Of a stretch of 64,000 nt of DNA, positions 42,826 to 64,000 are shown piece after piece; the stretch's first letter is position 1; each line of letters opens with the position of its first letter. Both the position numbers and the translations under genes were made by a program. The notes under the pieces were generated by a model. It saw only the letters and a list, made by a program, of their open reading frames with translations. It made no database searches and was not told the DNA's origin. Origin of the DNA: Ruminococcus sp. YE71 (lineage in GTDB: Bacteria; Bacillota; Clostridia; Oscillospirales; Ruminococcaceae); NCBI RefSeq assembly GCF_900119155.1, contig NZ_FPIR01000009.1:62001-126000 (forward strand), given 5' to 3'.

Positions 42826-42838
42826 AATTGACCTCTTT

Positions 42839-43456: not shown

Positions 43457-43458
43457 AC

Positions 43459-44394: not shown

Positions 44395-44491
44395 TTTGAT
44401 ACACTCCTCTTTCCCGGACGATTAGCACTATTGTGAGAACAAGCATTTTTGAACCACGTTCCGCTTTTTATCTACGGGATCAAGTTCATCT

Positions 44492-45532: not shown

Positions 45533-46831
45533 TCATGCCTTTTGTTTTTTGGCGGCATCTTCTACGGAGGCTGACGGGTCGGTGTCAAGCAGGGTGATAA
45601 CATCCTCAAATAGCTTTAACAAGGATAGCTGAAATGCTTCCGTGAATACCTGACCGCTTCCCGATGTGCCGAGAGTAAGTTCCTTCTCGCCCTCAAATAC
45701 CAGTAAAAAGAACTGTTCGACGGAGCGCTTTGTCGGTATCGAGACCTTATCGAGTTTCATGTTTTTTGTTTTTGAACCCGCAACAAAGTTCTGATATGTC
45801 AGACAAAACTGCATTCTGTCATAATAATGCGAGGATCTCAGATATGTCATATTTTCGGAGAACTTATTCTTTGATGAAGTCAGCAGGTCGGAAAGCATAT
45901 CCTTATCCGATATTTTCATTCTGTGCTGAAGTGGGTGTGCTATGTACCCCATTGTACGGAAATAACGCTTATCTGTACGGTTCGCGCTGGTAACGCCGAT
46001 TATCGTATCCTTACTGTCAAGAAGGAATGAGAGCCCGATGTGATATGCAAGCAATATCACATTGAATGGAGTAGTATTATTGGCTGCGGCAATTCGGTCG
46101 ATAGCTGTCCTGTCGATCTTGAAGGTGTGGTCGTATCCCGCGCCCCGTTCTCCGATGGCGGCTTTCGTGATATCAAGCATCTGATAGCCGTCGGTCTCTT
46201 TTTTCCAGTATTCAAGCTGTTTTTTTCCCTGTTCCGATGCCAGGAAATCATATTCTTCCTGAATGAAATCCATATATGTGCCGGTTTCCTCGCACTTTGT
46301 ATTCGGGTCTGTGTAGTATCTGAATATCTTATCCATTATCAGACCTGTCGTGCTGCCGTCACCTATCCAGTGATGTGCCATCCAGACAAAAATATGGTCG
46401 TTCCAGCCTATCTTGACAAGGAAGAATCGGCAGCTGGGTTCGTTAAACCAGTCGATGACGGTATTTACCTCACGCGATGCGATTTCAACTGCATTTTTCA
46501 GCCTGTCGTCCTTGGTTTTGCCCTCAGCTTCGTACACATCGAGTTTATACGGATAGTGTTCGATGACCTTCTGCTTATAGGTATCGCCGTGCTGAACAAG
46601 TATCAGCCTCAAAGCATCATTTTCATTGATGATACGCCCTATAACCTTTTCAAGTCTTTTGTAGTCGATGGGGATGCGCAGGCGGATGCCGCTTCCGACA
46701 TTCGCAACGCCGCTGTCCTGACCGTATTTTTCACGTCCGTTAAGGTCAGCCCGAATAAACGCAAGCTGACGGATACCGACGGGATATTCGATATCACCTG
46801 CTTCGTTCTGCAAAAACTTGTACTTTTCCAT
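45533..46831 (-). CDS. Stand-alone condensation-domain protein
   Basis: 432 residues, the size of one NRPS C domain. The motif WMAHHWIGDGSTTGL gives HHxxxDG (His153-His154, Asp158, Gly159). Other blocks: NENDALRLILVQHGD near 70-83 and TPFNVILLAYHIGLSFLL near 255. No carrier or adenylation domain. It could join an acyl group on one carrier to an amine or alcohol, or release the product. Last gene of the minus-strand biosynthetic arm, 12 bases after the AT gene. Start follows AGGAGATG. Confidence 0.82.
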   Translation of the reverse strand: MEKYKFLQNEAGDIEYPVGIRQLAFIRADLNGREKYGQDSGVANVGSGIRLRIPIDYKRLEKVIGRIINENDALRLILVQHGDTYKQKVIEHYPYKLDVYEAEGKTKDDRLKNAVEIASREVNTVIDWFNEPSCRFFLVKIGWNDHIFVWMAHHWIGDGSTTGLIMDKIFRYYTDPNTKCEETGTYMDFIQEEYDFLASEQGKKQLEYWKKETDGYQMLDITKAAIGERGAGYDHTFKIDRTAIDRIAAANNTTPFNVILLAYHIGLSFLLDSKDTIIGVTSANRTDKRYFRTMGYIAHPLQHRMKISDKDMLSDLLTSSKNKFSENMTYLRSSHYYDRMQFCLTYQNFVAGSKTKNMKLDKVSIPTKRSVEQFFLLVFEGEKELTLGTSGSGQVFTEAFQLSLLKLFEDVITLLDTDPSASVEDAAKKQKA

Positions 46832-46842
46832 AAATTCATCTC

Positions 46843-48012
46843 CTATATCAAAAAATCAGTCTTGATATTGACGCCCGACAAAAATGCGTTCCCTGCGGCG
46901 GTCAGGATCTGTTTTCGGTAGTTTCTTCCCGACCTTATCGTGGGTATCCACGCTGCACCGATATTCCCTAAGTTTTTCATCGCCATGCTGATAAGAACAG
47001 GCGAGACACCGATATCAATCACGCGGCTTATCTCATCGCGCGGCAAAGCTCCGACAGCCTGTCTGAACAACACGGGACGGACGATATGCGCCCCCCAATA
47101 GGCAGGCTGTTCGGGGGTCAGATCGCCCGACGACACCGTTGACAGCATTTTTCTGTGAGGTGTACGGAAGGTGACTTTTTTTGCAATATCAGTAAATCTC
47201 TCCGCACAGTCCTTTAAGCCCGAGTAATGTCCGCCGTGTGTCTGATTAATGATGCTCAGACGTATGCGCATAGATTTGCATATCTCATTTAGTGCCGAGA
47301 TATCCTTTGATATACCGCACACTGTCACAAGGTCTTCTGCGTTATATCCCGATATCTCTATTTCAAGACCGTTTTTTTCGGCGATACCGATTATCGTGTC
47401 GGCATCCGTTTCAACAGCCGCTATCCAGTGCGGTTCATCCTCATGCATGATGCCTGCACGCTGAACAAGCAGATACATCGCATCCGATGCCGACATAAGA
47501 CCGCTGCAAACTGCGGCGGCATATTCGCCCATGCTGTAGCCTATCAGATAATCGGGTACACAGCCGCTTTTTATCCAGAGATCCGCAAGTACGACCTCGG
47601 AAGCAAAAACGCGAAGTTGATCTATCACCGCATCTTCTGTCTGTTCATCCAAAAGTCTGACAGGGTAAAATTCTTCAGCCGCTTTTTCCAGTTTTTTCAG
47701 TTCAGATGCGAGAAATTCGCTCACACCGCTCAGTATGGTAAGCATTTGCTTCTGATGTATGCCGTTCCCCGGAAACAGAAACACATTTTTCCCGTGAAGG
47801 AGCTTTCCGTTGTTTTTTGCAAGAGTTCCCAACGCGGCGGATGAGGTTTGCAGTTTACGGTCTTCTTCGCCGCTGTAGACCATAAATGCACGGTACGGGT
47901 CGTGTTCGTTATACGAAAGATATGAGCCTTCCGACTTACTCTCCACGGTACTTAACAGCTGTGCGCTGTCATCAGCGGAAAACAGCGCCAGCTTAAAGCG
48001 TTCAGCCGACAT
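46843..48012 (-). CDS. Free-standing PKS-type acyltransferase (trans-AT)
   Basis: 389 residues. Residues about 1-70 look like the KS-AT linker of modular PKSs. The AT fold starts at VFLFPGNGIHQKQM (FPGQGxQ in the family; here Asn replaces Gln). The nucleophile elbow is LIGYSMGEYAAAV (Ser160) and the His region reads NQTHGGHYSG (His262). The substrate loop that usually reads xAFH or YASH is not conserved, so the extender cannot be read off. Its start overlaps the end of the ACP gene. As both KS proteins in the cluster lack an AT, this enzyme probably loads them in trans, perhaps with an alkylmalonyl unit made by the CCR homologue. Confidence 0.82.
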   Translation of the reverse strand: MSAERFKLALFSADDSAQLLSTVESKSEGSYLSYNEHDPYRAFMVYSGEEDRKLQTSSAALGTLAKNNGKLLHGKNVFLFPGNGIHQKQMLTILSGVSEFLASELKKLEKAAEEFYPVRLLDEQTEDAVIDQLRVFASEVVLADLWIKSGCVPDYLIGYSMGEYAAAVCSGLMSASDAMYLLVQRAGIMHEDEPHWIAAVETDADTIIGIAEKNGLEIEISGYNAEDLVTVCGISKDISALNEICKSMRIRLSIINQTHGGHYSGLKDCAERFTDIAKKVTFRTPHRKMLSTVSSGDLTPEQPAYWGAHIVRPVLFRQAVGALPRDEISRVIDIGVSPVLISMAMKNLGNIGAAWIPTIRSGRNYRKQILTAAGNAFLSGVNIKTDFLI

Positions 48013-48217
48013 TGTTTACCGCATTCAGTATGTCTGCCGCCGTGTCGTTGAGGGTCAGCTTGAGTTCATGACCCGCAACAGATTCAAGGTCAAACGAAAG
48101 CATCATGATATCAAACGAATCCATACCCAACTCCCCGACTATCGTTTCGGGAGTAAGTTCGCCGTTAAGTTCAACGTTGTTTTTTACGAGAAGTGCTTTT
48201 AATTCTTCCAGTGACAT
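48002..48217 (-). CDS. Acyl carrier protein
   Basis: 71 residues from ATG 48217, which follows GGAGGATATAAAA; longer in-frame extensions have no function visible. The phosphopantetheine site is GELGMDSFDIMML (Ser34). The sequence is ACP-like (acidic, DSF) rather than PCP-like. It lies between KS and AT, the natural partners. It is shorter than most ACPs at both ends. Confidence 0.88.
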   Translation of the reverse strand: MSLEELKALLVKNNVELNGELTPETIVGELGMDSFDIMMLSFDLESVAGHELKLTLNDTAADILNAVNNVG

Positions 48218-48313
48218 TTTTATATCCTCCATTTCGATGATACAGGCAATATGCAGACATATAGTATGCAAAGCCGTCAGGCGGTGCTGCCTATACGTTT
48301 TGACGGTGTTCGT

Positions 48314-49513
48314 TCAGTCGGCTTTTTTGAACATCAGCGCCGCATTATGTCCGCCGAATCCAAAGGATGCGGAAACGGCGGTCTCGATCTTAGCTTCTTT
48401 GGTTTCCGAGGGAAGACAGAGCCCCGCAAGCGGCGTGCCGAGAATATTCCCGTGGATGACTTGATTTTTTATCGAATACGCGCAGATAGCCGCTTCTATA
48501 GCGCCCGATGCGCCTATCGTGTGCCCTATGATACCCTTTGCGGAAGTCACGGGGATATCTTTCAGGGAATCTCCGAACACCTCGGTCAGAGCGTACTGTT
48601 CGGTCTTGTCGTTCAGTACGGTCGCTGTGCCGTGTGCGTTGTAGTAATCAATCTTCTGACCGCCGCAAAGCCTGCGAAGCATCCTGATGATCTGAGAGGC
48701 ATCCTGCGGCATCTGAACGATATGAAAGGCATCACAGGTAGATCCATAGCCTGTTATCTCGGCATAGATCCTTGCACCGCGCTTTTTCGCCGATTCATAT
48801 TCTTCAAGGATAAGCGCACAGGCTGCACCCTCGGAAAACAAAAATCCGCTGCGTTCCTCGGAGAAAGGCAGAGGCAAGCCGTTCTCGCTTTTGGTGAGAG
48901 TTCGGAGAACATCGAACGATTTTAGCAGAAGTCCGTTTTCGCATCCGAGATAATCCGCACCGCCGCAGACAGCCGACCTGCCTCTTCCCGACCGGATATA
49001 CCAATAAGCATCGCCGACAGCATTTGTACCCGATGCACAGGCGGTCGAAATCGTCTGATTGATACCGTTTATCCCAAGCAGAATGGAGATCCACGCGGAA
49101 ACGGAACTTGTCATCATCATCGGATTTGAACACGGGTGTATCGGTGAATGAGAGGTCAGCGCACGGTCGGTACGCAATATCTCTTCTGTGTGCGGCACTC
49201 CCACTCCAAAGAAAACGGCTGTATCTTCATCAAGCTTTTCGATGCCCGAATCTCTGACCGCCAAAAGCGCGGAAGCCGCTGCTGCCCATACCGCTTTTGA
49301 CGACCTCGTTTTCATTTTTTTATATGCGCTGCCGAATCCTTCATCATCTGTTTCGGGAAATGGCACATAGAATTTCGTAGAAACGGAAGCGGAACAGTAT
49401 TCGGGAGGGATGGGTCTTACCGCAGTTTTTTTGTTCAGCAGATTTTCAAAAAAGGCATTACCGCTGCCTATCGCAGTTATCGGCGCGATGCCTGTTATCA
49501 CTACACGATCCAT
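48314..49513 (-). CDS. Beta-ketoacyl synthase (FabF-like), free-standing
   Basis: 399 residues. The catalytic triad is intact: STACASGTNAV (Cys159), YNAHGTATVL (His294) and GHTIGASGA (His331). Overall it is FabF-like rather than modular-PKS-like, but its place with a dedicated ACP, trans-AT, CCR homologue and PPTase points to secondary metabolism. It would condense a malonyl-type unit on the ACP. Start follows AAAGGAGATAAGCT. Near the N-terminus the usual second-strand region is shortened. Confidence 0.9.
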   Translation of the reverse strand: MDRVVITGIAPITAIGSGNAFFENLLNKKTAVRPIPPEYCSASVSTKFYVPFPETDDEGFGSAYKKMKTRSSKAVWAAAASALLAVRDSGIEKLDEDTAVFFGVGVPHTEEILRTDRALTSHSPIHPCSNPMMMTSSVSAWISILLGINGINQTISTACASGTNAVGDAYWYIRSGRGRSAVCGGADYLGCENGLLLKSFDVLRTLTKSENGLPLPFSEERSGFLFSEGAACALILEEYESAKKRGARIYAEITGYGSTCDAFHIVQMPQDASQIIRMLRRLCGGQKIDYYNAHGTATVLNDKTEQYALTEVFGDSLKDIPVTSAKGIIGHTIGASGAIEAAICAYSIKNQVIHGNILGTPLAGLCLPSETKEAKIETAVSASFGFGGHNAALMFKKAD

Positions 49514-49525
49514 AGCTTATCTCCT

Positions 49526-50761
49526 TTACAAAACGTCATCGGGAACGATCCTTACCGCATATTTTCCCATCAGGTCTGAGCCGCGCTCCATATCGGCGTG
49601 CGCCTGCGGGAGTTCGTCCCAGCTGTATACCCTGCTGACTGACGGGATAAAATCATGCTCGCGGCGCAGTCTCAGGTATTCTTTAAGGTCATCTGCCGAA
49701 CCTGCATGGCTGCCCTGTATACGCTTCTGATATATCCACAGATGCCGCAGATCGATCGACGCTGTGTGACCCGTCGTAGCACCGCAGAGAACGACCATTC
49801 CCCTGCCCGCGCACACGAAAAGAGAGGTCGCAAGCGTATCACTTCCGGGATGCTCGACCACTATCATCGGGTTCACTCTTTTTCCGACTATGGTATATAT
49901 CTCATTACGGAATCTTGCCGCCTGAAGACTCCACTGACGCACACCCGCTTCGTCAAGGCCGCAGATATTGCCCCAATGTGTATATCGGGTGCGGTCGATA
50001 TAGCCTTTCGCGCCCAAAGATATGCAGTATTCGCCTCGTTGAGCGCTTGATACGACTGCAACAGGTATGCCGCCGTAAGCCCTTACCTGCTGTATCGCGC
50101 TGCTGCCAAGTCCGCCTGCGCCGCCCCATATAAGGACAACATCGTTTTCTCTGATGCGGTTTTCTTCCCAATGTCTCAGCATTCGGTTGACTGTAGTTCC
50201 TGTCGCACAGCAGACGGCAGCTTCATCCCAATCCATGCTTTCGGGCTTCGGGACACACTGATAATCGCTGACCTTTGAGAACTGCGAAAACGCTCCCCAA
50301 TTGCCTTCGTAACCCCACATATGATATGACGGGCTGTATTCTGGTTCGCCGCCGTTCAGGATAAAGGGGCAGTTTTTATTATATTTTGAAGCAGATATTA
50401 TCACATGGTCGCCGACTTTTACGTTTGTCACCTCGTCTCCGACCGCGTAGACTATCCCTGCCGCCTCAGAACCGCAGATATGAAAATCCTGTTTTGCATC
50501 GCCGTATGTGCCGTTCGCTTCGATGACATTTTTAGGCTTGCCGCGAGCCGCCCAGATCGCGTTATAATTTATGCCTGCCGATATATTCGCAACAAGCACC
50601 TCGTCGGGACGCAGGGCAGGTATATCGACTATCTCGTCACGAAAGGCTGTCAGCGGACTGCCAAAACGTTCGCTTCTTATCGTCCATGCGTGCATTTTTT
50701 CAGGTATCGTACCAAGCGGCGGCAGCGTGCCTGCCGAATATATCTTATCTGTGATAATCAT
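49526..50761 (-). CDS. Crotonyl-CoA carboxylase/reductase (CCR) family enzyme
   Basis: 411 residues, zinc-free MDR fold. Family blocks: GINYNAIWAARGKP, HICGSEAAGIVYAVG, HMWGYEGNWGAFSQF, IWGGAGGLGSSAIQQ (cofactor loop) and IVVEHPGSDTLATSLF. The Asn of NYNAIW, the Tyr-Glu pair of WGYE and the His of EHPG are at the positions known to hold CO2 in carboxylating members of the family, so it probably makes an alkylmalonyl-CoA extender by reductive carboxylation of an enoyl-CoA. Its start overlaps the end of the PPTase gene (ATGA). Such enzymes are well known in actinomycete PKS clusters and rare in strict anaerobes. Confidence 0.85.
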   Translation of the reverse strand: MIITDKIYSAGTLPPLGTIPEKMHAWTIRSERFGSPLTAFRDEIVDIPALRPDEVLVANISAGINYNAIWAARGKPKNVIEANGTYGDAKQDFHICGSEAAGIVYAVGDEVTNVKVGDHVIISASKYNKNCPFILNGGEPEYSPSYHMWGYEGNWGAFSQFSKVSDYQCVPKPESMDWDEAAVCCATGTTVNRMLRHWEENRIRENDVVLIWGGAGGLGSSAIQQVRAYGGIPVAVVSSAQRGEYCISLGAKGYIDRTRYTHWGNICGLDEAGVRQWSLQAARFRNEIYTIVGKRVNPMIVVEHPGSDTLATSLFVCAGRGMVVLCGATTGHTASIDLRHLWIYQKRIQGSHAGSADDLKEYLRLRREHDFIPSVSRVYSWDELPQAHADMERGSDLMGKYAVRIVPDDVL

Positions 50762-51480
50762 AGACGGGTCAACTCCTGTGATCTGTTATTTTTGCTGCAA
50801 AAATATCCCGATAGCTGACTGAAACTCATGGATACGATCTTTATGTTATCCGAATGCGAAAATACCGAGGCGCGGTATCCCGTATCGGGTATCCACGTTT
50901 TCCCGAACAGACCGCTGTTTTCCGATATACTCAGTCTGTCGCTTCGGATATCTGCCGAAAATGATGATAACGGTCTCAAAAGACCCTCACCCGTGTATTT
51001 CAGATATGATTCCTTTGCAGTCCATAATATGAAAAACATATCCCTTCGGGCTGTTTCGGACTGTATTCCTTCCAAAGCTGCGGTCTCTGCGGGGTGAAAA
51101 AACTGACGCGCCAACGCAAGTTCATCCCTCTTATCCTGTACTTCCTCAATATCGCATCCGCACGGAAAAAGATCTGCCGCACAAAGCACATATCTGCCTG
51201 AATGAGATATGCTGAGATATATCTTTCCCGCAGGTGTGACCGCATAAGGCGGTCTGCCTGCTTCTGTGACAAGCTTTACATCCGATATATCACATAGTGC
51301 AGTCTGCGACGCTGCACAGACTGCTGACAAACCGCCCGTCAGACATCTTACACGGTCAGCAAGGTGTCTGTAACGTGTAAGACGATGCTGTCTTTCGTCG
51401 GGCAAAAATGCCGAAAGCCTGGCATCGGGTGCTGTTGTGCAGTCAGAGATATCCGTCAGCCAGATGCGCATCTCATTCAT
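50758..51480 (-). CDS. 4'-phosphopantetheinyl transferase, Sfp type
   Basis: 240 residues. KIYLSISHSGRYVLCA and CGCDIEEVQ hold the metal-binding Asp-x-Glu, and FFILWTAKESYLKYTGEGL is the (W)xxKE(S/A)xxK motif. Sfp-type length means broad carrier use; it should arm all ACP/PCP/ArCP domains of the cluster with phosphopantetheine. The start overlaps the end of the FtsX-type permease gene (ATG at 51480, alternative at 51471). Confidence 0.93.
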   Translation of the reverse strand: MNEMRIWLTDISDCTTAPDARLSAFLPDERQHRLTRYRHLADRVRCLTGGLSAVCAASQTALCDISDVKLVTEAGRPPYAVTPAGKIYLSISHSGRYVLCAADLFPCGCDIEEVQDKRDELALARQFFHPAETAALEGIQSETARRDMFFILWTAKESYLKYTGEGLLRPLSSFSADIRSDRLSISENSGLFGKTWIPDTGYRASVFSHSDNIKIVSMSFSQLSGYFCSKNNRSQELTRL

Positions 51481-53689
51481 TGTTTCGTTTCAGACTTTCT
51501 GTCATCTCGACCCTGCCGACTTTATTCGAGACCATCAGCAGAGAGAGAACATATGAAGCCAGAATGATGATAACGGTAATGAGATAGCTGAGGGGCTTAA
51601 CATAAAGCGATATCAGCATACCCGTTGTTTCGGCAGATGATGCACATATCGACTTTCCCACAAGTAATGCAGGCGGGATGCCGATAAGTATCCCGAAAAT
51701 CAGAAGGATATGATTTCCGCTCAGTACAAGGCTGTTTATCTCCTTTTTGCGGTAGCCGAGTATCTTGAACATTGAAATGTTTATCGTGTTTTCTTCTATC
51801 ATCATGTTCGAGATAAGATACATCGACAAAACTCCGAGCATAAAGCCTACGAGTATGACGATATAGCACATCTTATAGTAGACTTGCACCGCCGATTTTA
51901 CGCTGTCGCGGTAATCGTCACGCGATGATGATGACATGACGGTATCGGGATCGTATTCGAGTTTTTTCCTGCTGACTACCATATTGCGGTCATCTTTTCC
52001 ATACCCCATTATTTCAGCCGCATTTTCGGTGCTCGTATATACGGCTGAATTGATATTATCGTCGATGATGCCCTCTATCTTTACGGTATGTTCTTCGGTC
52101 GTTATCAGATCGCGGAATGTAAAGCTGCTGCCCTCGGAAACGCCGTATGATACCGCTGCGGCATTTGTCATGTAGTATGAACCGTACTGCATATCCTTGC
52201 CAGACTTTGTTTTCATTGTGAAAAAGTCGGTATCCTCTTCATATCCCCACAGACTGAACAACAAGGTGCTGTCAGAGGTCTCAAAACGGCTGACAAGTGC
52301 GGATTCGGCATCGTCGGGGACATCGAATTCTGTGGTATTCAGCATATAGGAATAGTCATACGGTATAAGGTCAACGGATGAATCTACGATATTATCCGCA
52401 GAATCCTTTGTTATCCAACCCATGAGGATACATATCGTACTTACGGCGATACCTGTTACTATCACGATAGAACGGGAAATATGTCCGAATACCGAACGCA
52501 AACGGTATTTTTTTCTGAAAGGCAATGACCTGCCTGCAAGGAACGCACTTCCCTTTTTCTTTTTATCCGTCTGTCTCAGCATTTCGACAGGGTCTTTGCG
52601 CAGCATCCTGCCGACCGTGAGATTGGAAACGAGTGTGTAAAGCAGCGGAGGGAGTATCAATGCTAATACTGCGGTCACGGGCGATACTCTAACGGTGTGC
52701 GGCAGCGCTTCAAAGAAATTGAAATACATCTCGGAAAACGGGAATGCCGCAGCATATCCACAGACAAGTCCGACCGCCGCGCCGATGATCCCCGGGACAA
52801 GCGAATACAGCGCATAATGCCTTTTTATCTCAGCGCCTTTATATCCTAACGCGATCAGTGTGCCTATTTGCTTTTGTTCGCCTTTCAGACGGCGGCTGAG
52901 CATGAGCGTTATCAGCAAAAGCACGATACCGTACAGCATAGGCGCAACGATAAGCGCTACAGACTTTACAAGTTTTGCCTGATTCAGCGCTGACTGAACG
53001 CGGATATTATTATTGACCGCCGTATAATTCAGTATCCTGCGGTCGCTGTTGATGCCTTTTCTGAATTCGACAGAATTATCCTTTTGGTATCTGACGGCAT
53101 AATACGACCTGCTGTCAGTAAGCTCGGAGACCACAGATCTGTTTGCTACAGCCAGACCAAAACTGCTGTAATCGGGGAATGAATCTGTAAGTTCGCGCAG
53201 CATACAGAGATAGTCTGTCCGCACCATATATCCGCTTATGCGAAAACTTTCTCCGCATATATCTATACTGTCGCCTATTTTCAGTTTTTGTGCGTCTGCA
53301 AAACGCTCGGAGATCATTATCTCTTTGTCTGAGGCGGGGGCGTTTCCCTTTATTACCTGACAGATATTTACCTTGTCGTTTATCCCTGCCAGACGCAGAA
53401 CATAATCGTCTTTTTCATCGTCGCAGTAGACCATTTCCTCTATCTTAACGCTGTATTTCTGTTCGGCTTCGGAAATGTCACTGTCGGAAAGCGGCAGCAT
53501 GGTCACAAACTGCGCATCTTCTGTCAGGCAGTCTTCTATACCCTTGTTGTAAACATCGTTCATCAGTTCGGCAGTCGAGATCGCAGCTATTATAAGAGCG
53601 CCTATCAGTATTGTCAAAAGTGTAACAACAAGATTGAACGACAAATTGGTTCGGATGCTTCGGAAATATCTTTTGTTCAGCTTCATCAT
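51473..53689 (-). CDS. ABC transporter permease, FtsX/MacB-like, two-module
   Basis: 738 residues from ATG 53689, the A of which overlaps the TGA of the ATPase gene (ATGATG) with GAGGAAAT upstream. A first helix at about 10-35 leads to a periplasm-type outer domain (about 40-235), three helices with an FtsX core (about 250-360), a second helix (about 405), a second outer domain (about 425-600) and a last FtsX core (about 615-735). This double FtsX layout is typical of lipoprotein/antibiotic/peptide exporters in Firmicutes. With the ATPase gene it probably exports the cluster's product or gives self-protection. Confidence 0.85.
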   Translation of the reverse strand: MMKLNKRYFRSIRTNLSFNLVVTLLTILIGALIIAAISTAELMNDVYNKGIEDCLTEDAQFVTMLPLSDSDISEAEQKYSVKIEEMVYCDDEKDDYVLRLAGINDKVNICQVIKGNAPASDKEIMISERFADAQKLKIGDSIDICGESFRISGYMVRTDYLCMLRELTDSFPDYSSFGLAVANRSVVSELTDSRSYYAVRYQKDNSVEFRKGINSDRRILNYTAVNNNIRVQSALNQAKLVKSVALIVAPMLYGIVLLLITLMLSRRLKGEQKQIGTLIALGYKGAEIKRHYALYSLVPGIIGAAVGLVCGYAAAFPFSEMYFNFFEALPHTVRVSPVTAVLALILPPLLYTLVSNLTVGRMLRKDPVEMLRQTDKKKKGSAFLAGRSLPFRKKYRLRSVFGHISRSIVIVTGIAVSTICILMGWITKDSADNIVDSSVDLIPYDYSYMLNTTEFDVPDDAESALVSRFETSDSTLLFSLWGYEEDTDFFTMKTKSGKDMQYGSYYMTNAAAVSYGVSEGSSFTFRDLITTEEHTVKIEGIIDDNINSAVYTSTENAAEIMGYGKDDRNMVVSRKKLEYDPDTVMSSSSRDDYRDSVKSAVQVYYKMCYIVILVGFMLGVLSMYLISNMMIEENTINISMFKILGYRKKEINSLVLSGNHILLIFGILIGIPPALLVGKSICASSAETTGMLISLYVKPLSYLITVIIILASYVLSLLMVSNKVGRVEMTESLKRNNE

Positions 53690-55090: not shown

Positions 55091-55130
55091 CCGATCACCC
55101 GATTATTCTGTTTCGGCTGCGCACTCCTTA

Positions 55131-55178
55131 GTTAGCGCCACCTAACCGATTATAGCATATGCTGACCGAAATTGTCAA
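55131..55178 (-). promoter_or_regulatory. Promoter of the minus-strand NRPS/PKS arm with one box
   Basis: TTGACA (55173-55178), 18 bases, TATAAT (55149-55154) on the minus strand, then GTTAGG-TGGC-GCTAAC (55131-55146), starting two bases after the -10. Confidence 0.82.
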
Positions 55179-55240
55179 CCCCCTCAAATATGCTTTTGTG
55201 CAAACGATACGATAATAGGTCCGGTTTGTGAGTTTATTTA

Positions 55241-55335
55241 GTTAGCTAATGCTAATTTTTACAAAAAGAATGCAGATCTTTATTGACAAAAAAATGCATC
55301 TGTGATATAATTTCACATGGTTAGCTTTAACTAAC
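55241..55335 (+). promoter_or_regulatory. Promoter of the plus-strand NRPS/PKS arm with two boxes
   Basis: TTGACA (55283-55288), 17 bases, TATAAT (55306-55311). One box GTTAGC-TAAT-GCTAAT lies upstream (55241-55256) and one GTTAGC-TTTA-ACTAAC downstream of the -10 (55320-55335; GGTTAG...CTAACC when extended). The flanking arrangement is the same as at enolase. Confidence 0.82.
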
Positions 55336-55397
55336 CCGTTAGTCCGACAGCTTTACAGCTTGATGTATTTTATGAAAAACAGGAAGGGACCCCCATC

Positions 55398-57236: not shown

Positions 57237-57981
57237 ATGGTTCGCATTCGGTGCGGAACGCGAGAATGCAAGTCTTTCTCTGCTGTTGTTCCCTTTTGCG
57301 GGCGGTTGCCCGTCTGCATTTGTTCAGTGGAAAAACAAGCTGACGGATGATATCAGCATATATCCTGTTCAGTATCCGTTCAGAGAAGCACGCAGAAAAG
57401 AAACTTTGCCCGACACGGTCAGGGAGCTTGCAGAAACATTAGTTCGTGAGAACGAGGCGGTATTTTCGGGAAAATACGCCGTATTTGCACACTGTGCAGG
57501 TGCAGCGATCGCTTATGAGACTGTACTTGAAGCGCGAAAAATGTATGGCACAGAACCCGAATTCATGATAGTATCGGGGGCTGAACCGCCCGAGTATTCT
57601 CTGGAAAGCCTGAAATATCTTTCACAGGCGGAGGAGACCGAGTTTCTGGATTATCTGATCTCGAAAGGGTTTGCCGATGAGAGCGTGCGTAAAAATTCCG
57701 CCTTCCTGAGTTACTATCTGCCGATAATCAAGGCGGATTTCACGCTGATGTTTTCATATAAAATGACCCGTGATGAAGAGCCGCTGCATTGTCCGCTGTA
57801 TATTTTCCGCGGAGATGATGATAAGGTCATTGATGTGAACAGACTTGAAGACTGGAAAAAATACACGACCGCCGAAACATCCGAACGCATTTTTGACGGC
57901 GGACACTACTATTTCACAAACGACCCCGATACGGTCTGCGCAGAGATCGGGCGGATAGTTAAGAAAGGGGCGGCAACATGA
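57226..57981 (+). CDS. Thioesterase-fold protein with Cys nucleophile (follows ligase-carrier)
   Basis: 251 residues. LFPFAGGCPSAFVQW is the type II thioesterase start, but the nucleophile elbow reads VFAHCAGAAIAYE, so Cys90 replaces Ser. The acid (YIFRGDDDKVIDV) and the His (FDGGHYYFTND) are in place, so the triad is Cys-Asp-His. The gene overlaps the ligase-carrier gene by 11 bases. Cys versions of this fold (CmaE, SyrC) shuttle acyl groups between carrier proteins instead of hydrolysing them. A transferase role serving the fused carrier is a fair inference. Confidence 0.85.
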   Translation: MTNKWFAFGAERENASLSLLLFPFAGGCPSAFVQWKNKLTDDISIYPVQYPFREARRKETLPDTVRELAETLVRENEAVFSGKYAVFAHCAGAAIAYETVLEARKMYGTEPEFMIVSGAEPPEYSLESLKYLSQAEETEFLDYLISKGFADESVRKNSAFLSYYLPIIKADFTLMFSYKMTRDEEPLHCPLYIFRGDDDKVIDVNRLEDWKKYTTAETSERIFDGGHYYFTNDPDTVCAEIGRIVKKGAAT

Positions 57982-58721
57982 GTTTGCAGAAATGCGCGGT
58001 AGTAACAGGGTCGGCAAGCGGGATAGGCGCATCGTCCGTTAAGCGCCTTGCAAAAGACGGTTTCGATGTTGTCATCAACTACCACAGGGACAGCCGACTG
58101 TCGGAAGCCGAAAGCATCGCAGAGGAATGCCGCGCGTTCGGAGTTCGGGCGATGACCGTAAAGGCGGATATCTCAGACCCTTCACAATGTGATGAACTTG
58201 TTCAAGCGGTGGTTGATGAGTTCGGCAGGATAGATGTTTTGGTGAACAATGCAGGCATCACGAATCTTACACCTATGCTGAAAATGTCCGACGAAGATTT
58301 TGACCGTGTTATGAGGACAAATGCCTACGGTACTTTTTACATGATGAGAAGTGCCGCCCCCGTCATGAAAAAACAGCGCAGCGGCAGCATCATCAATATT
58401 TCTTCGGTCGGCGGGCTTTACGGCGCACCTTGGTCGATAGGCTACGCCGCATCGAAGGGTGCTGTTATCGCGCTCACCAAAACCGCCGCAAAGGAACTTG
58501 CTATCAGCAATATCCGTGTCAATTCTATCGCTCCAGGCGGATGCGATACAGGCATCATCGAGGTCAACGAACATCAGATAAAAGAACAGCTGCGTTTTGT
58601 CACGCTGGGAAGGGTCGGCAGACCCGATGAGATCGCCGGCGCGGTTTCTTTTCTCGCATCGGATGATTCTTCATATATCACGGGTCATGTGCTTGAAGTA
58701 AGCGGCGGGGTGATGATGTAA
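57978..58721 (+). CDS. FabG-like ketoreductase (SDR)
   Basis: 247 residues. TGSASGIGASSVKRLA cofactor loop, NNAGITN, ISSVGGLYGAPWSIGYAASKG (Ser, Tyr, Lys of the triad) and NSIAPGGCDTGI. It resembles FabG and would reduce a beta-keto thioester on a carrier, matching the KS encoded right after it. Overlaps the preceding gene by four bases (ATGA). Confidence 0.88.
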   Translation: MSLQKCAVVTGSASGIGASSVKRLAKDGFDVVINYHRDSRLSEAESIAEECRAFGVRAMTVKADISDPSQCDELVQAVVDEFGRIDVLVNNAGITNLTPMLKMSDEDFDRVMRTNAYGTFYMMRSAAPVMKKQRSGSIINISSVGGLYGAPWSIGYAASKGAVIALTKTAAKELAISNIRVNSIAPGGCDTGIIEVNEHQIKEQLRFVTLGRVGRPDEIAGAVSFLASDDSSYITGHVLEVSGGVMM

Positions 58722-60401
58722 ATGGATATGAATGATAACAGAATCGCAGTAATAGGCATGAGTTTTCGTTTTCCGTCCGCCGAAAACAAAGCGGCTTTTA
58801 CCGCTATGCTGCGAAACGGCGAGTATGCAAAAGCGGGGACACACGAAGCACGCGGAGAATTGGTCGGGATAGCGGATTATCACGAACTTCTGAAAAACAT
58901 CCGCACTATCGACGGCATCGAATACTTCGACAACAGTTTTTTCGGGATAGTCAAGCCCGAAGTGATGGAGATGCCGCCCGAACTGCGGCTGACGATGCAG
59001 GGCGCCGCAGAAGCGATAATGGATGCAGGCTACAGCATACAGTCGATATCCCGTCGCAAATGCGGAGCGGTCACAGCACAGACGACCTGTTCCTACAAAA
59101 GACTTCTGAAGAAGACAAGTTTTCTTTCATTCTTCAACAATATGCCGGGAATGACCTGCGGTTATCTCGCACAATATCTGAAACTCAACGGACCTGTCTA
59201 TCATCTTGATTCGACCTGTTCTTCAACGTTAAGTGCGGCGGCAGCAGCCTGCAACCATCTGCTGATGGGGCAGGCAGACCTTATGCTTGCAGGCGGAGTG
59301 CAGATCTGTATGCCCGTTGACAGTCAGGAAAGCAAGGATATGCTTTCAAACGTGCTGAGTATCGGCGCTGACGGACAATGTTTGCCGTTCGACAAGAATG
59401 CCGCAGGTTTTTTCAGCAGCGAGGGCGTTGGGTTCGTTTTGCTTGAACGGTATGAGGATGCGGTCAGAAATCACGACCACATCTACGGGATAATAAGAGG
59501 CTACGGGATGCACAGCAACGCGGGAAGGTGTGCAACGATATATGCGCCTAACGCCGACGCTCAATATCTCGCGCTTAAAGAAGCGTGGAAAATGGCAGGG
59601 ATAACAGCCGACGACCTGACAGAATTTGAAGCACACGGCGCGGCGACTGTTCAGGGCGATATGGCTGAGGTCTGCTGTATGTCCCGTGCGCTTTCCGAGA
59701 GAACCGTCAAAGAAGCTGTTCTGCTTTCGGCGGTCAAATCAAATCTGGGTCACAGCGGAAATGCCGCAGGCATCACGGGGCTTATCAAGCTGCTGCTTTC
59801 ATTTGAAGCAAAAACCGTTTTCCCCATTTCGGGGTTCACGGAAGCGGATCCGAAGCTCGACCTCGTCGGTGCGCATTTAGCACCCGTAAAAAGCCCGATA
59901 GCGCTTGACAGGCACAGGATAGCGGACATCGGCAGTTATGGTCTGAACGAGCTCAATGTTCATATGATACTTGAAAGTGCGGAAAATATCCCTGCACCGA
60001 ATCTCAAACCCGATAAGGTGCATTATCTGAAATGCAGCGCTGCATCCGAAACGGCGTTATCGGCATATCTTGCTGAGATCGCCGAGGAAATAGGTCGGAC
60101 AGATGATCGTGACGATCTTATCCACACCTTGAATTTCGGACGTGATGACTTTGCATATCGCTGTTTTATCCGTTTTGAAAATACGGACGATCTGCTTTTA
60201 AAGCTGACCTGCCCTGTAGATATCGTAAAATGCAAAATAAATAAAGCTGCGCAGGCGGTATGCCCCGAAAATGAAGATGAGATCTGCCGCATATATCTCA
60301 GCGGCGGAAACATTGATTGGTGCGCTTTAGCGAAAAAAACACAGTATCAAAAACTGCCGTCCGTAACATATCCTTTTGAAAAAAAGAAGATATGGGCTTA
60401 A
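58722..60401 (+). CDS. Free-standing modular-type ketosynthase, AT-less
   Basis: 559 residues. Unlike the FabF-like KS of the other arm, this one is PKS-type: RIAVIGMSFRFPSA start, LDSTCSSTLSAAAA (Cys166), EFEAHGAATVQGD (His305) and SAVKSNLGHSGNAAG (His344). After the KS (about 1-420) comes an extension of roughly 130 residues ending LPSVTYPFEKKKIW, the post-KS/AT linker tail of modular PKSs, with no AT between. It must be served by the trans-AT at 46843. The start codon follows the KR stop directly, so it is translationally coupled. The usual DPQQR loop is replaced by EMPPELRL. Confidence 0.9.
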   Translation: MDMNDNRIAVIGMSFRFPSAENKAAFTAMLRNGEYAKAGTHEARGELVGIADYHELLKNIRTIDGIEYFDNSFFGIVKPEVMEMPPELRLTMQGAAEAIMDAGYSIQSISRRKCGAVTAQTTCSYKRLLKKTSFLSFFNNMPGMTCGYLAQYLKLNGPVYHLDSTCSSTLSAAAAACNHLLMGQADLMLAGGVQICMPVDSQESKDMLSNVLSIGADGQCLPFDKNAAGFFSSEGVGFVLLERYEDAVRNHDHIYGIIRGYGMHSNAGRCATIYAPNADAQYLALKEAWKMAGITADDLTEFEAHGAATVQGDMAEVCCMSRALSERTVKEAVLLSAVKSNLGHSGNAAGITGLIKLLLSFEAKTVFPISGFTEADPKLDLVGAHLAPVKSPIALDRHRIADIGSYGLNELNVHMILESAENIPAPNLKPDKVHYLKCSAASETALSAYLAEIAEEIGRTDDRDDLIHTLNFGRDDFAYRCFIRFENTDDLLLKLTCPVDIVKCKINKAAQAVCPENEDEICRIYLSGGNIDWCALAKKTQYQKLPSVTYPFEKKKIWA

Positions 60402-60441
60402 AATACGCTCGGTACAACAATATATGACCAGGAGGATAACT

Positions 60442-60675
60442 ATGAATAATGAAATAATGATAGCCGAACTCAAAGCGATATGGAAAGAGATACTCGAAAG
60501 TGAAGAAGAGATCGGGACCGATGAATCCTTTTTCGAGATAGGCGGCAATTCCATGCTTGCGACTATGATGGTCGAAAATATCAACGGCAAATATTCTTCG
60601 TCGCTCACACTGAACGATGTTTACGAGCACAACACTATAGAACAGCTTGCTGAGCTGCTTGCTTCACAGGGCTGA
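60442..60675 (+). CDS. Free-standing carrier protein (PCP/ACP)
   Basis: 77 residues from ATG 60442, with AGGAGGATAACT upstream; the longer frame overlaps the KS gene. The attachment site is FFEIGGNSMLATMM (Ser37). The GGNS form is more like NRPS carriers than FAS ACPs. It lies between the KS and a Cys-type thioesterase homologue. Confidence 0.9.
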   Translation: MNNEIMIAELKAIWKEILESEEEIGTDESFFEIGGNSMLATMMVENINGKYSSSLTLNDVYEHNTIEQLAELLASQG

Positions 60676-60679
60676 AGAT

Positions 60680-61453
60680 ATGAACAGCACATACGGAGTC
60701 TGGTTCCCGACAGTTCGGAGCAGTGAGACTGCGGAATTCAGGATCATCTGTTTTCCGCACGCAGGGGCGGGCGCTTCCGCTTATTTGGATTGGTGCCGTT
60801 TTATCCCGAACAATGCGGAGTTTTTCCCCTGTGCATATCCGATGCGTGAAAAGCGGCACAGAGAGTCTATGCCGGGATCTCTGCGTATCCTCGCAGAGGA
60901 TATCGCAAAAGAGAACAAGGCTGTTTTTACCGAAAAGCCGTGCATTCTGTTCGGACACTGCGAGGGCGCGGTGATCGCCTATGAGACCGCACTGGCGGTA
61001 CGGGAAATTTACGGCGTGTCGCCTGCACTTCTTGTTATGTCCGCAAGCAATCCGCCCTGTGTACCGCTTTCGATATCTGTTGATGAAAATATGGATATTT
61101 ATGAAGCGGCTGAAACGTTCAGAAAGTTTGGATTTATCGCAGATGCGTTTGCAAAGAATGAGACATATATCCGATGCTTTGTACCTGTTTTGCTGAAAGA
61201 TTTCGTTTTGTTTCAGAAGTATTCGGATGACTTGATGAAAAAGGTCGATTGTCCGATACTTGAAGTTCACGGCAGTGATGACAAAATGATCCTGCCCGAA
61301 CACGCAAATATGTGGAAAAAATATACTGACTGCGGGGCAGACCATATAGAATACAGCGGCGCACATTTCTATTTCAGCGCCGAAACTCTGCCGCGGCTTA
61401 TCAATGAAATGCTTGACATGGTCACAAAAAAAGAGGAAAGGAAAACGTTATGA
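60680..61453 (+). CDS. Thioesterase-fold protein with Cys nucleophile (follows free carrier)
   Basis: 257 residues from ATG 60680, four bases after the carrier stop. IICFPHAGAGASAYLDW is the family start; the elbow reads ILFGHCEGAVIAYE (Cys94 instead of Ser). LEVHGSDDKMI holds the acid and YSGAHFYFSAE the His. It is close in layout to the protein at 57226 and lies right behind a carrier, which suggests the same kind of job on a different carrier. Confidence 0.85.
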   Translation: MNSTYGVWFPTVRSSETAEFRIICFPHAGAGASAYLDWCRFIPNNAEFFPCAYPMREKRHRESMPGSLRILAEDIAKENKAVFTEKPCILFGHCEGAVIAYETALAVREIYGVSPALLVMSASNPPCVPLSISVDENMDIYEAAETFRKFGFIADAFAKNETYIRCFVPVLLKDFVLFQKYSDDLMKKVDCPILEVHGSDDKMILPEHANMWKKYTDCGADHIEYSGAHFYFSAETLPRLINEMLDMVTKKEERKTL

Positions 61454-61737
61454 ATACAAGCAACCTCCCGACACAATACCGAACAGAAAGAATAAAAAAG
61501 GCATTAGAAAAACTGTGGTGCGATAACCTTCAGACCGCCTGCGCTTCGGATGACGATAATTATTTCATCTGCGGCGGCGATTCACTGAAAGCGATACGGC
61601 TTCTTTCGGCTATCGACCGTGAGTTTTCAGTGCGCTTAAACTATACCGATATTTATGAATATCCGACTTTTTTTGAATTGCTGTCACATATCGAAGCGGT
61701 CATCGCGGCAAACAGAGGACAGGAGGAAGCTGTATGA
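61450..61737 (+). CDS. Free-standing peptidyl carrier protein
   Basis: 95 residues. The site is YFICGGDSLKAIRLL (Ser45), GGDS as in typical NRPS carriers, with VRLNYTDIYEYPTFFEL in helix 3. Overlaps the genes on both sides by four bases (ATGA at each end). It is again followed by a Cys-type thioesterase homologue. Confidence 0.9.
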   Translation: MNTSNLPTQYRTERIKKALEKLWCDNLQTACASDDDNYFICGGDSLKAIRLLSAIDREFSVRLNYTDIYEYPTFFELLSHIEAVIAANRGQEEAV

Positions 61738-62531
61738 TACTGTTTTGCATTTCCGCAGCAGGCGCAAATCCCTTCATGTCGTGGTCTGCATCGCTGAGAA
61801 AGGACATTAAGCTGTGTATTCTCGACCTTCCCGGAAGGGGCAGTAAGCGTTCCGAAAAGCCTGTCGAAAATATGGATGAACTCTGCCGCATCCTTATCTC
61901 GGATATGGATAAAGAAAACCCCGCAAATGACAGCTTCATGATACTCGGATACTGCTTCGGGGCTGTGATAGCCTATGAGATCTGCAAAAAATTACAGGCA
62001 GAAAACAAGCCGCTCCCGGGCGCTTTTCTCACATTTGGAAGCGGCGCACCTGATTCTCTGCGCATTCCCGAAAAGGAACTGACAGAGACCGAAGAATTTC
62101 GCGGGATGGTCGCACAGTTCTTCAATTCGGGAAGTCTCGGAAGTGATGAAGCTGCCGAAAAAGCCGTCAGCGCCTATGCATCCGCGTATAAAAAAGAGAC
62201 CCCCGTATCATTTGCGTCTGTGTTTCCCGACGGGAATGAGGATGAGGATTTTGAACAGATGCAGCTGCTTTTTCTGCTGAACGGCGCTATGGAACAGATC
62301 TCACAGGATCACAGGATGCTGAAAGCCTATCATGACGCGGCGCACGGTCATGAAGTCATCAAGACCTGCGCGGTGGTATTTTACAGTCCGCAGGACAGGT
62401 TTGCGGCAGAAAAAGATGTTCTGGGTTGGGAGCGTTATTTTCAGAGCTCGGATAAAAAAAGCGTCACGGGCGGGCATTATGCCATCATGTCTGAGAAAAA
62501 GTTTTTTATCGAGATCATAAACGGTCTTTGA
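61734..62531 (+). CDS. Thioesterase-fold protein with Cys nucleophile (follows PCP)
   Basis: 265 residues. It starts almost at the first strand (MILFCISAAGANPFMSW) and so lacks the usual 10-20 residue lead. The elbow is MILGYCFGAVIAYE (Cys74; Tyr instead of His before it). FYSPQDRFAAEKDV holds the acid, and VTGGHYAIMSE the His. It is more distant from the other two Cys-type proteins, with the longer lid (about 130-190) rich in acidic residues. The gene is four bases into the PCP gene and 14 bases before the NRPS gene. Confidence 0.83.
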   Translation: MILFCISAAGANPFMSWSASLRKDIKLCILDLPGRGSKRSEKPVENMDELCRILISDMDKENPANDSFMILGYCFGAVIAYEICKKLQAENKPLPGAFLTFGSGAPDSLRIPEKELTETEEFRGMVAQFFNSGSLGSDEAAEKAVSAYASAYKKETPVSFASVFPDGNEDEDFEQMQLLFLLNGAMEQISQDHRMLKAYHDAAHGHEVIKTCAVVFYSPQDRFAAEKDVLGWERYFQSSDKKSVTGGHYAIMSEKKFFIEIINGL

Positions 62532-62545
62532 ACAGGAGGACAGCC

Positions 62546-64000
62546 ATGACACAGAAAATACACGATATATTTGCGGAAATACTCGGAATAAAGGGCGATT
62601 TTGAAAGCGATATCTCCTTTATCGAGCTTGGCGGAACGTCCATTCTCATCGGTGAACTGAAAAGCCGTCTGGACGCAGAATTTCATGTCGATATCCCTTT
62701 TGAAAAAATGTTTGAATCGGGTTCGGTCTGCGGTCTTGCCGAACAGATCGAGCTTTTGCGCAAAAATGTAATAACCGATGACAACGCCGCAGCCTTTGAG
62801 GTGCATCCCGAAAAGCGGTTCGATGTTTTCAAAATGACAGATCTTCAGACAGCTTACTATATCGGGCGGCAGAATGATACCGAACTCGGCGGCAGCCCCA
62901 CAAGAGGTTATTCGGAGATCATTTGCGAAAACTACGATCATCGCCGTATGGAACAGGCTATCCGCAAGCTCATCGCTAAGCACGATACTCTGCGTACACA
63001 TTTTAACGAGGACGGCACACAGCAGGTCGAGGCTGAATTCGGGGAGCTTGATTTTGAGCTTGAAGATATTTCCGATATGCAGCCTGATGCACAGCAGGAA
63101 TATCTGCTTGAAAAGCGTGAGCGGATATTTGATACGGTCTTTGATGTTCATCATCTGCCGCTGGTCAGCTTTGCGGCTACAAAATGCGCTCCCGACAAGA
63201 CCATCATCCATTTCAGCCATGACGGTATGATAATCGACGGATGGAGTCATGAAAAGATAATAGGCGAGCTGGACAAATTCTACACGGATACTGAGCTGAG
63301 TGCAAGACCGCCCGAAATACTTTTCTCGGATTATGTAAGATATCTTGAAGAGATAAGAGATACGGACAAATTCAGGGCGGACAGAGAATACTGGTTGCAA
63401 AAGGCTTCGGACAAGTTTTCGAGACCTGCGCTCCCTCTCAAGACCGACCCCGGCAATATCAGACAGGTACGCACACGTCAGGTCATCAGATACATAAGCC
63501 GAGAAACATGGAACGGCGTTGCGGAGTTTGCGGGCAGGAATGAACTTACTCCGTTTTCCGTGATATTCACCGTTTTCGGCAAGTCGATATTAAAATACTG
63601 CCGTGATAAACAATGCGTTATCAATATGCCTGTCGCTGTTCGTCCGCACATACATCCCGATATGGGTGAACTTATCGGAGAATGCTCAAACTTCTTCCTG
63701 TTCGATCTTGACGATACGCAAAACAGGAGTTTTATCGAGTGTGCGTCGGAAAACCAGAAGGAAATAGCCGAGATAATGCAGCACGATTCATTTTTCGGCA
63801 CTGACCTTATCCGCGAACTGCAAAAGAAGGACGGTGCAAATGTTGCCGCCCCTATCGTTTTCACAAGTCTGATAGATATACCTGCGCGTGAAGAACATTC
63901 GCTGAAAAAAACGTATACCAAAACGCATACAAGTCAGGTGTGGATAGATGCCATTGCGATGAAAAACACCGACGGCATCATGCTGACAATGGACTGCGCG
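62546..64000 (+). CDS. NRPS beginning with carrier-heterocyclization (ArCP-Cy), cut by the window edge
   Basis: 485 codons are open to the right edge. ATG 62546 follows AGGAGGACAGCC. Residues 1-75 are a carrier (FIELGGTSILIGEL, Ser32). From about 90 a heterocyclization domain follows: FKMTDLQTAYYIGRQ (Cy1), HDTLRTHF (Cy2), and SHDGMIIDGWS, in which Asp226, Asp231 and Ser234 form the DxxxxDxxS motif that replaces HHxxxDG; FSDYVRYLEE, and TSQVWIDAIA (Cy7) near 465. Cy domains join and cyclize Cys, Ser or Thr into thiazoline or oxazoline rings. The order ArCP-Cy at the N-terminus is that of PchE and HMWP2. The expected next domain, an adenylation domain for Cys/Ser/Thr, lies outside the window. 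Confidence 0.93.
   Translation, partial: MTQKIHDIFAEILGIKGDFESDISFIELGGTSILIGELKSRLDAEFHVDIPFEKMFESGSVCGLAEQIELLRKNVITDDNAAAFEVHPEKRFDVFKMTDLQTAYYIGRQNDTELGGSPTRGYSEIICENYDHRRMEQAIRKLIAKHDTLRTHFNEDGTQQVEAEFGELDFELEDISDMQPDAQQEYLLEKRERIFDTVFDVHHLPLVSFAATKCAPDKTIIHFSHDGMIIDGWSHEKIIGELDKFYTDTELSARPPEILFSDYVRYLEEIRDTDKFRADREYWLQKASDKFSRPALPLKTDPGNIRQVRTRQVIRYISRETWNGVAEFAGRNELTPFSVIFTVFGKSILKYCRDKQCVINMPVAVRPHIHPDMGELIGECSNFFLFDLDDTQNRSFIECASENQKEIAEIMQHDSFFGTDLIRELQKKDGANVAAPIVFTSLIDIPAREEHSLKKTYTKTHTSQVWIDAIAMKNTDGIMLTMDCA

Follow-up and report, generated by a model that had tools for sequence, protein, structure and literature searches.

A putative iron-repressed NRPS/PKS gene cluster with a dissociated assembly line in Ruminococcus sp. 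YE71, predicted to direct synthesis of a thiazoline metallophore

Introduction

The equibactin, yersiniabactin and pyochelin pathways are the closest described counterparts of the locus examined here, a hybrid nonribosomal peptide synthetase (NRPS)/polyketide synthase (PKS) gene cluster of Ruminococcus sp. YE71 that lies in a 64,000-base stretch, called the window throughout (bases 62001–126000 of the 152,545-base contig NZ_FPIR01000009.1; genome 4.07 Mb). The equibactin genes eqbA-N, located on ICESe2 of Streptococcus equi, and the present system have in common a DtxR-type regulator, a DhbE-type AMP ligase, a Cy-type NRPS, a phosphopantetheinyl transferase (PPTase), a type II thioesterase (TE) and ABC transporters, as well as the operator core GTTAG-N6-CTAAC and a host in which no salicylate synthase is found (PMC3672683; the papers cited here were available as partial text, and what is attributed to them extends as far as that text). 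The regulator EqbA binds a 36-base palindrome with the core GTTAGATGTATCTAAC when Fe2+, Zn2+ or Mn2+ is given, and accumulation of 55Fe depends on the equibactin cluster (PMC3672683). The Anaerococcus prevotii plasmid pAPRE01 has an equibactin-like gene content by annotation, a metal-dependent regulator and a Gfo/Idh-type protein; its cluster is modular and includes nickel/peptide-type ABC genes, and the plasmid is typed as conjugative. Unlike the window, both the equibactin locus and pAPRE01 have modular NRPSs and carry an oxidoreductase and transporters in the cluster (PMC3672683 for equibactin). The plasmid further differs in its Ser-type TE and in its ligase, which is 34% identical and has a His-Asn pocket, and no ketosynthase (KS), crotonyl-CoA carboxylase/reductase (CCR) or acyltransferase (AT) is annotated in the stretch covered.

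Yersiniabactin and pyochelin share with the window an AMP ligase, the arrangement carrier-Cy-A(Cys)-carrier, where A is the adenylation domain, and a type II TE. Yersiniabactin biosynthesis also follows a KS/AT/ketoreductase (KR) extension logic, as in the window cluster. The window differs from these two systems in having its domains on separate proteins, a CCR, three TE-fold proteins with an active-site Cys (Cys-TEs) and an Asn-to-Tyr exchange in the ligase; the cluster has no reductase, and a search of the genome did not turn up a salicylate synthase. The Bilophila arylthiazole cluster bil likewise combines a DhbE-like ligase, a Cy-NRPS, PKS extension and type II TEs, but it encodes multidomain enzymes, and neither a CCR nor free domains are described in the available text (PMC11934131). 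In split NRPS systems, CmaE, SyrC, CysB and LgnA are small TE- or AT-like proteins that move acyl groups between carriers (PMC8748450, PMC7966384, PMC8949500). The first three, from coronamic acid, syringomycin and cystobactamid synthesis, are small separate proteins for carrier-to-carrier transfer, a role predicted for proteins of the window (PMC7966384, PMC8748450, PMC8949500); the window differs in holding three shuttle candidates in one cluster, and these are likened by fold and Cys rather than by sequence kinship. No description of the present cluster was found in the literature searched.

Results

The cluster comprises 18 genes in two divergent arms of nine genes each, extends from window position 45533 to past 64000, and is divided by a 307-base gap (55091–55397). 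It is read here, with a probability of roughly 0.7, as a hybrid NRPS/PKS pathway, repressed by iron and run as a dissociated assembly line, whose product is a secreted thiazoline metallophore. Domains were called with Pfam profiles and with NCBIfam models judged against their curated cut-offs, and solved relatives were taken from PDB comparisons. All 18 open reading frames are intact, with one terminal stop each and no internal stop, and the cluster contains six carrier sites. Every part named in a first-pass annotation of this DNA was recovered with an open frame (Pfam, NCBIfam, motifs), and its coordinates are correct for the window, although the cluster ends 1.9 kb past it. A genome of the same family but another genus (G117) has counterparts of all 18 genes in the same order and orientation, with identities ranging from 37% (PPTase) to 78% (ABC ATPase). 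Because all 18 genes match in this way, divergent layout included, the cluster is more than a chance assembly. The active-site motifs sought are present in both genomes for the free condensation (C) protein, the AT, both KSs, the short-chain dehydrogenase/reductase (SDR), the four TEs, Cy, A and all carriers.

The last gene of the plus arm encodes a 1137-aa NRPS with the order carrier-Cy-A-carrier (62528..64000, plus strand, continuing to L010:7942, window-equivalent 65941; Pfam, NCBIfam, motifs). It runs 1941 bases beyond the window and has neither a terminal TE nor a second module; since the frame is complete at 1137 aa, the possibility that it is a fragment or the start of a megasynthase is rejected. 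Extension of the contig to the right, the check suggested earlier for further NRPS domains, yielded an A domain with a Cys-like pocket and a carrier. The Cy domain carries the motif DGMIIDGWS, a type that marks the Cy form of condensation domains. Alignment with the pAPRE01 NRPS gives the A-domain pocket D-M-F-N-L-G-V-I-W. The specificity code for Cys is DLYNLSLIWK; the pocket is closest to this code, and cysteine is the predicted substrate. BmdB, the bacillamide NRPS, and dihydroaeruginoic acid synthetase (7emy) are among the PDB relatives of the protein. The product quite probably contains a thiazoline.

The gap holds two consensus sigma-70 promoters, each matching 12 of 12 letters and pointing outward: TTGACA-18-TATAAT for the minus arm (55149..55178, minus strand) and TTGACA-17-TATAAT for the plus arm (55283..55311, plus strand). 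The consensus scan of 551 bases returned five promoter-like sites, compared with a shuffle mean of 1.6. Palindromic boxes of the DtxR/EqbA type, GTTAGC-N5-CTAAC, lie 2 nt behind the minus-arm -10 (box 1, 55131..55146), between the promoters (box 2, one mismatch, 55241..55256) and 8 nt behind the plus-arm -10 (box 3, 55320..55335). Set against the EqbA core in the available text, half sites and spacing are identical, at one letter off the GTTAGC-N5-CTAAC pattern (PMC3672683). The layout is the same in G117, where the promoters match 12/12 and 11/12 letters and boxes lie 6 and 4 nt behind the -10, the 4-nt one with one mismatch. Each divergent promoter has a DtxR/EqbA-type operator, positioned so that it would block RNA polymerase.

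The box recurs beyond the cluster. Exact copies in the window amount to nine strand matches, or seven distinct sites, against a mean of 0.00 in 100 shuffles, and at up to one mismatch there are 20 strand matches against a shuffle mean of 0.42. The genome contains 20 distinct exact boxes; at up to one mismatch it contains 37 forward and 36 reverse, compared with 12 and 10 for a reversed control pattern. Genes adjoining boxes encode FeoA, two FeoB proteins, two DtxR-family (Fe_dep_repress) proteins of the C22 locus, a Ferric_reduct+FMN_bind protein, a DUF3793 protein and exporter-fold ABC pairs. As the pattern came from the two cluster promoters only, boxes elsewhere are independent evidence. 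G117 has six exact boxes, two of them in the cluster promoter; its boxes precede or adjoin genes for a FeoB of 68% identity, a P-type ATPase and a DUF3793 protein, as well as an ABC pair. This palindrome, shared by iron uptake and DtxR-family genes, fits a putative DtxR/IdeR-type iron regulon, and the product is very probably an iron-regulated metallophore. The metallophore-like character proposed in the first-pass annotation is supported by the iron-type operators, and its Cy domain is borne out together with a Cys-like A domain; its aryl acid is unproven.

Several boxed loci elsewhere involve transport or secreted proteins. An exporter-fold ABC pair (Pfam) and a TetR-like gene (by eye) with a box between them occupy window 5448–9693 and are candidates for metallophore uptake, as are further boxed ABC genes at L011:6441–9968 and L049:4742–8231, for which one partner each was Pfam-tested, and at L011:1218–4840, called by similarity. 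The other ABC partner at L049:4742–8231 is apparently split over two frames. In window 9838–18744, boxes at 16081, 16102 and 16307 are surrounded by genes for large secreted-looking proteins, a ZIP-family transporter and the Ferric_reduct+FMN_bind protein. Three boxes, two with one mismatch, lie at 3738–3922, upstream of a gene (4054–5355) that is enolase-like by eye.

The plus arm opens with a DhbE-type AMP ligase fused to a carrier (55398..57236, plus strand; PF00501, PF00550), whose closest PDB relative is the 2,3-dihydroxybenzoate (DHB)-AMP ligase 1md9 (E 2.7e-99). A pocket Asn is a feature of the substrate pocket of salicylate and DHB ligases. Three solved ligases of these kinds have His-Asn, whereas the window ligase (His218-Tyr219) and its G117 counterpart have His-Tyr. 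Among 14 other DhbE-type homologues (L014–L017, L052–L060 and L062, without L061, which matches poorly, and without A domains L001–L004), the pair is His-Asn in 11, His-Lys in two and His-Cys in one. The genome yielded neither a salicylate nor an isochorismate synthase, since the sole PF00425 match, a 508-aa frame at C22:57908, is TrpE-like in length. The view that the aryl ligase is the hallmark of a phenolate siderophore is not supported in this form: the protein belongs to the DhbE family by sequence, but its 395.8 bits against the NCBIfam DHB-AMP ligase model are about half the cut-off of 723.55, its pocket is His-Tyr and a salicylate synthase was not found. Salicylate or DHB as the default starter is rejected on the last two of these points. 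The starter acid could come from outside, because S. equi, which lacks a salicylate synthase, uses external salicylate (PMC3672683); yet the pocket argues against salicylate. We infer that the starter is an aromatic or hetero-aromatic acid, and probably not salicylate or DHB.

The remaining genes supply mostly single-domain enzymes. Outward from the gap, the minus arm encodes TE1 (54347..55090; PF00975, Ser nucleophile in GHSMG), an ABC ATPase (53686..54423; PF00005) and an FtsX-type ABC permease (51473..53719; PF02687) that are presumed to form an exporter, the PPTase (50758..51480; PF01648), the CCR (49526..50761), a FabF-like KS1 (48314..49513; Pfam, NCBIfam), a free acyl carrier protein (ACP; 48002..48271; GMDS motif, no Pfam match), the free-standing trans-AT (46843..48012; PF00698, 3.1e-20) and the free C protein (45533..46831; PF00668, 1.3e-35), in which HHWIGDG is intact and also present in G117. 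KS1 has the Cys-His-His motifs and scores under the FabF equivalog cut-off; the AT has GYSMGE with an atypical GGHYS motif, and its solved relatives are remote, with CurL ranked first. On the plus strand, the ligase-carrier fusion is followed by TE2 (57226..57981; AHCAG, Asp, GGHY), a FabG-like SDR (57978..58721), KS2 (58722..60401; Pfam, motifs), the free carrier PCP1 (60376..60675; PF00550, GGNS), TE3 (60647..61453; GHCEG), the free carrier PCP2 (61450..61737; PF00550, GGDS), TE4 (61734..62531; GYCFG) and the NRPS. TE2, TE3 and TE4 are Cys-type and match PF00975. The SDR, presumed to act as KR in trans, scores under the FabG model cut-offs and above a general SDR subfamily model; KS2 is type I-like with a C-terminal linker and has PksL among its top solved relatives.

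A CCR homologue had been called in the first-pass annotation, and the TIGR01751 score of 433.3 bits, above the curated cut-off of 378.55, bears this out. The protein falls into the zinc-binding-dehydrogenase-type reductases in Pfam and has AntE as its closest solved relative, with which its Asn, Glu and His regions align at the level of regions rather than residue by residue. In CCR enzymes, Asn, Glu and His residues have roles in CO2 binding. An alkylmalonyl extender would be supplied via this enzyme; crotonyl-CoA is plentiful in butyrate-forming anaerobes. One gene of the G117 cluster is additional: it lies between KS1 and ACP (G117:C1 near 95135–96712) and encodes an AMP ligase with no clear orthologue among eight of the ten AMP-binding loci of the YE71 genome (best 32%). 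Pairing of a ligase with a CCR recalls extender pathways such as that of reveromycin.

Searches with the ligase and the free C protein indicate that the cluster is rare, an estimate only, since the family, order and class genome sets are samples of larger groups. At E ≤ 1e-60 the ligase was matched in 6 of 297 family genomes (YE71 itself 100%, G117 68%, the others 35–38%), at E ≤ 1e-90 in 10 of 391 class genomes (YE71 being the only close one, the others 34–38%), and at E ≤ 1e-100 in 1 of 13 genomes of its own genus and 1 of 3 of the genus of G117, these being YE71 itself and G117 itself, respectively. The free C protein was matched at E ≤ 1e-30 in 1 of 394 order genomes, again YE71 itself. 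Two ligase scans of named genomes (84,980 species), from which records of the YE71 genome or one very near it may be excluded, gave no close relative: the first confirmed none of 25 candidate stretches, and the second gave one distant match of 48, at 25% identity.

Less complete parallels exist within the family. In the genus of YE71, a DhbE-type ligase, a Gfo/Idh reductase and a free condensation protein are encoded on a 22-kb contig (G035:C48), with boxes upstream; in NRPS 1 of this locus, condensation and AMP-binding domains are matched twice each and carriers three times, with a methyltransferase match under the cut-off. This is a modular DhbE-ligase/NRPS cluster with the same boxes upstream, and it supports the metallophore reading. 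In two other loci, G028:C37 and G295:C30, a DhbE-type ligase is accompanied by free-standing condensation-type proteins and by free carriers. They resemble the window cluster in these components and in having a Cys-TE, and differ from it in the His-Asn ligase pocket and in the absence of a KS, CCR or AT homologue (in a whole contig of 16.3 kb and in 20 of 181 kb, respectively). Since all three loci hold free condensation-type proteins, and the latter two also free carriers, the dissociated format has partial parallels. The single-domain format noted earlier is therefore confirmed but is not isolated, given a full homologue in G117 and three further partly dissociated family loci. Among the loci compared, none is as dissociated as the window and G117 clusters, and KS, CCR and trans-AT occur in these two only.

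Other NRPS loci were encountered in these comparisons. The partly dissociated cluster of G295 includes a class II tRNA-synthetase-like protein (PF00587; L118:6087–7265) near a small carrier-like protein (4771–5019), and the former is possibly an amino-acid:carrier-protein ligase. An NRPS locus in G103 (C12:1–18000, L123) has two adjacent TEs, one of them Cys-type, condensation-protein matches and an exact box at 16574. A further NRPS-like frame, 1249 aa long, is present in the YE71 genome (C24 near 73225, L001).

All four TE-fold proteins expected from the first reading of the sequence are present, but three of them have Cys, not Ser, in the GxSxG position. The distinction is kept in G117, whose counterparts read AHCAG (TE2), GHCAG (TE3), GYCSG (TE4) and GHSMG (TE1). 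A Cys-type TE is encoded next to each of the first three plus-arm carriers. Among 27 distinct TEs compared from relatives, a set that takes in the four of G117 and leaves out the window's own four and PF00975 matches of ≤32 bits in other genomes, 10 have Cys and 17 have Ser; all 10 Cys-types stand in NRPS loci, while 11 of the 17 Ser-types come from loci with only a partial survey of NRPS neighbours. The Cys-types are distributed over G117 (three), G035 (two), G028:C37 (three), G295:C30 (one) and G103 (one), and a DhbE-type ligase is present in all of these loci except the NRPS locus of G103, which lacks a close one in the 18 kb covered.

CmaE and SyrC have a TE fold with an active-site Cys. 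By analogy, TE2–TE4 may be acyl shuttles between separate carriers, an assignment placed slightly below even odds. It is favoured over editing because the first three plus-arm carriers each adjoin a Cys-TE and because shuttles in split NRPS systems have precedent. The rather unlikely alternative is a dissociated line in which intermediates are handed over by diffusion and docking, with TE2–TE4 acting as type II editing TEs and the Cys a neutral change. Siderophore clusters usually have an editing TE (YbtT, PchC), and among solved proteins TE2 is related to thioesterases of the stand-alone kind, 3qmw, YbtT and RifR among them; against editing stand three additional copies next to the Ser-type TE1, the retention of Cys in TE2–TE4 of both genomes while TE1 keeps Ser, and the occurrence of the relatives' Cys-types in NRPS loci.

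Four genes adjoin the minus arm at 42046–45250, on the minus strand from a hydrolase (45250) to a methyltransferase (42046), with a box of their own upstream (45272..45287). They were rejected as part of the core cluster despite this box, because nothing in the compared 56 kb of G117 matches them. Further away, at 33150–40212, lie genes that by eye resemble PII proteins and urea carboxylase/allophanate hydrolase.

Discussion

A course for the metallophore pathway can be proposed from its predicted parts. Under iron limitation, a DtxR-type repressor would release both promoters. The DhbE-type ligase would load the starter acid onto its own fused carrier, the acyl chain would pass to the N-terminal carrier of the NRPS, and Cy would couple cysteine and close the thiazoline. 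KS2, trans-AT, ACP and KR would add and reduce a polyketide unit, with the CCR providing an alkylmalonyl extender, and the three Cys-type TE-fold proteins would probably ferry acyl groups between the separate carriers in the manner of CmaE, SyrC and CysB. The free C protein may form the last bond or release the product, and TE1 may edit or release. Export would fall to the ABC pair of the cluster, and the metal complex may be taken up again by exporter-fold ABC pairs belonging to the same regulon. The order of the condensation steps is left unfixed by the sequence data. It is doubtful, though conceivable, that covalent modules have been largely abandoned in favour of carriers wired by dedicated Cys-type TE-fold shuttles, one per hand-over, together with an unusual starter and a CCR-made extender; we know of no thiazoline metallophore with such a starter acid and extender.

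A number of observations, besides the ligase pocket and the failure to find a salicylate synthase, weigh against the proposed metallophore pathway. First, the Pfam-scanned cluster proteins include no uptake system and no thiazoline reductase of the Gfo/Idh family. Second, the boxes in the cluster promoters are not independent evidence, because the pattern was derived from those promoters; the feoA box overlaps codons 9–14 of the longest frame, and only a start at Met21 or Met23 would place it upstream; boxes at up to one mismatch are barely enriched in G117 (14/14, compared with 10/13 for the control). DtxR relatives may also respond to Mn or Zn. Third, NRPS 2 of G035 bears a TubC docking domain, and one of the Cys-TEs of G028:C37 is a domain within a 940-aa frame rather than a free protein. 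Fourth, the Ser-type LgnA also shuttles, and Cys is therefore not required for shuttling. Finally, equibactin showed no chelator activity in a dye assay, according to the available text (PMC3672683), and the presence of an iron-type operator is thus no proof that iron is chelated.

At the sequence level, the cluster displays a DhbE/YbtE-type ligase, carrier-Cy-A(Cys)-carrier and metal-type operators, all features of phenolate-thiazoline siderophore loci. It appears to work like the equibactin/yersiniabactin class but is not filed as a member, because the pocket Asn is missing, no aryl-acid synthase was found and the reductase is absent from the cluster.

Three further explanations were considered. 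It is unlikely that the product is an iron-repressed antibiotic, signal or redox compound instead of a scavenger. Some arylthiazoles of gut Bilophila do have antibiotic activity (PMC11934131), and the cluster has no importer inside it, but its operator is common to exporter-fold ABC pairs, FeoB and the ferric-reductase-like gene, and the same boxes precede the modular DhbE-ligase/NRPS cluster of the genus. There is also little probability that two pathways lie back to back, the minus arm making an alkylmalonyl/acyl-ACP building block or lipid and the plus arm a small acyl-thiazoline. The minus arm does have its own ACP, KS, AT, CCR, C and export, and a second acyl ligase adjoins KS1 and ACP in G117; however, the arms share a single, doubly operated promoter region, are jointly conserved in two genera, and complete each other, a KR being encoded only in the plus arm and an AT and a PPTase only in the minus arm. 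An operator answering to manganese or zinc, with a zincophore-like or other metallophore as product, is improbable, for although EqbA binds with Fe2+, Zn2+ and Mn2+ (PMC3672683) and one box has a ZIP-family gene in its vicinity (window 17965–18744), the boxes at feoA, two feoB genes and the ferric-reductase-like gene indicate iron.

If the iron-repressed metallophore pathway proposed here is correct, its starter acid and CCR-derived extender would set the expected product apart from yersiniabactin, pyochelin and equibactin. The proteins are mostly single-domain and can be purified singly, which makes the cluster a natural kit for studying the non-covalent hand-over of intermediates and Cys-TE relays. 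Since regulon and operator are legible from the genome, the question of the metal is directly testable. Siderophores in anaerobes have been termed a rare occurrence in the text available (PMC6814731), and if the host is an anaerobe, the cluster bears on siderophores in this group of organisms.

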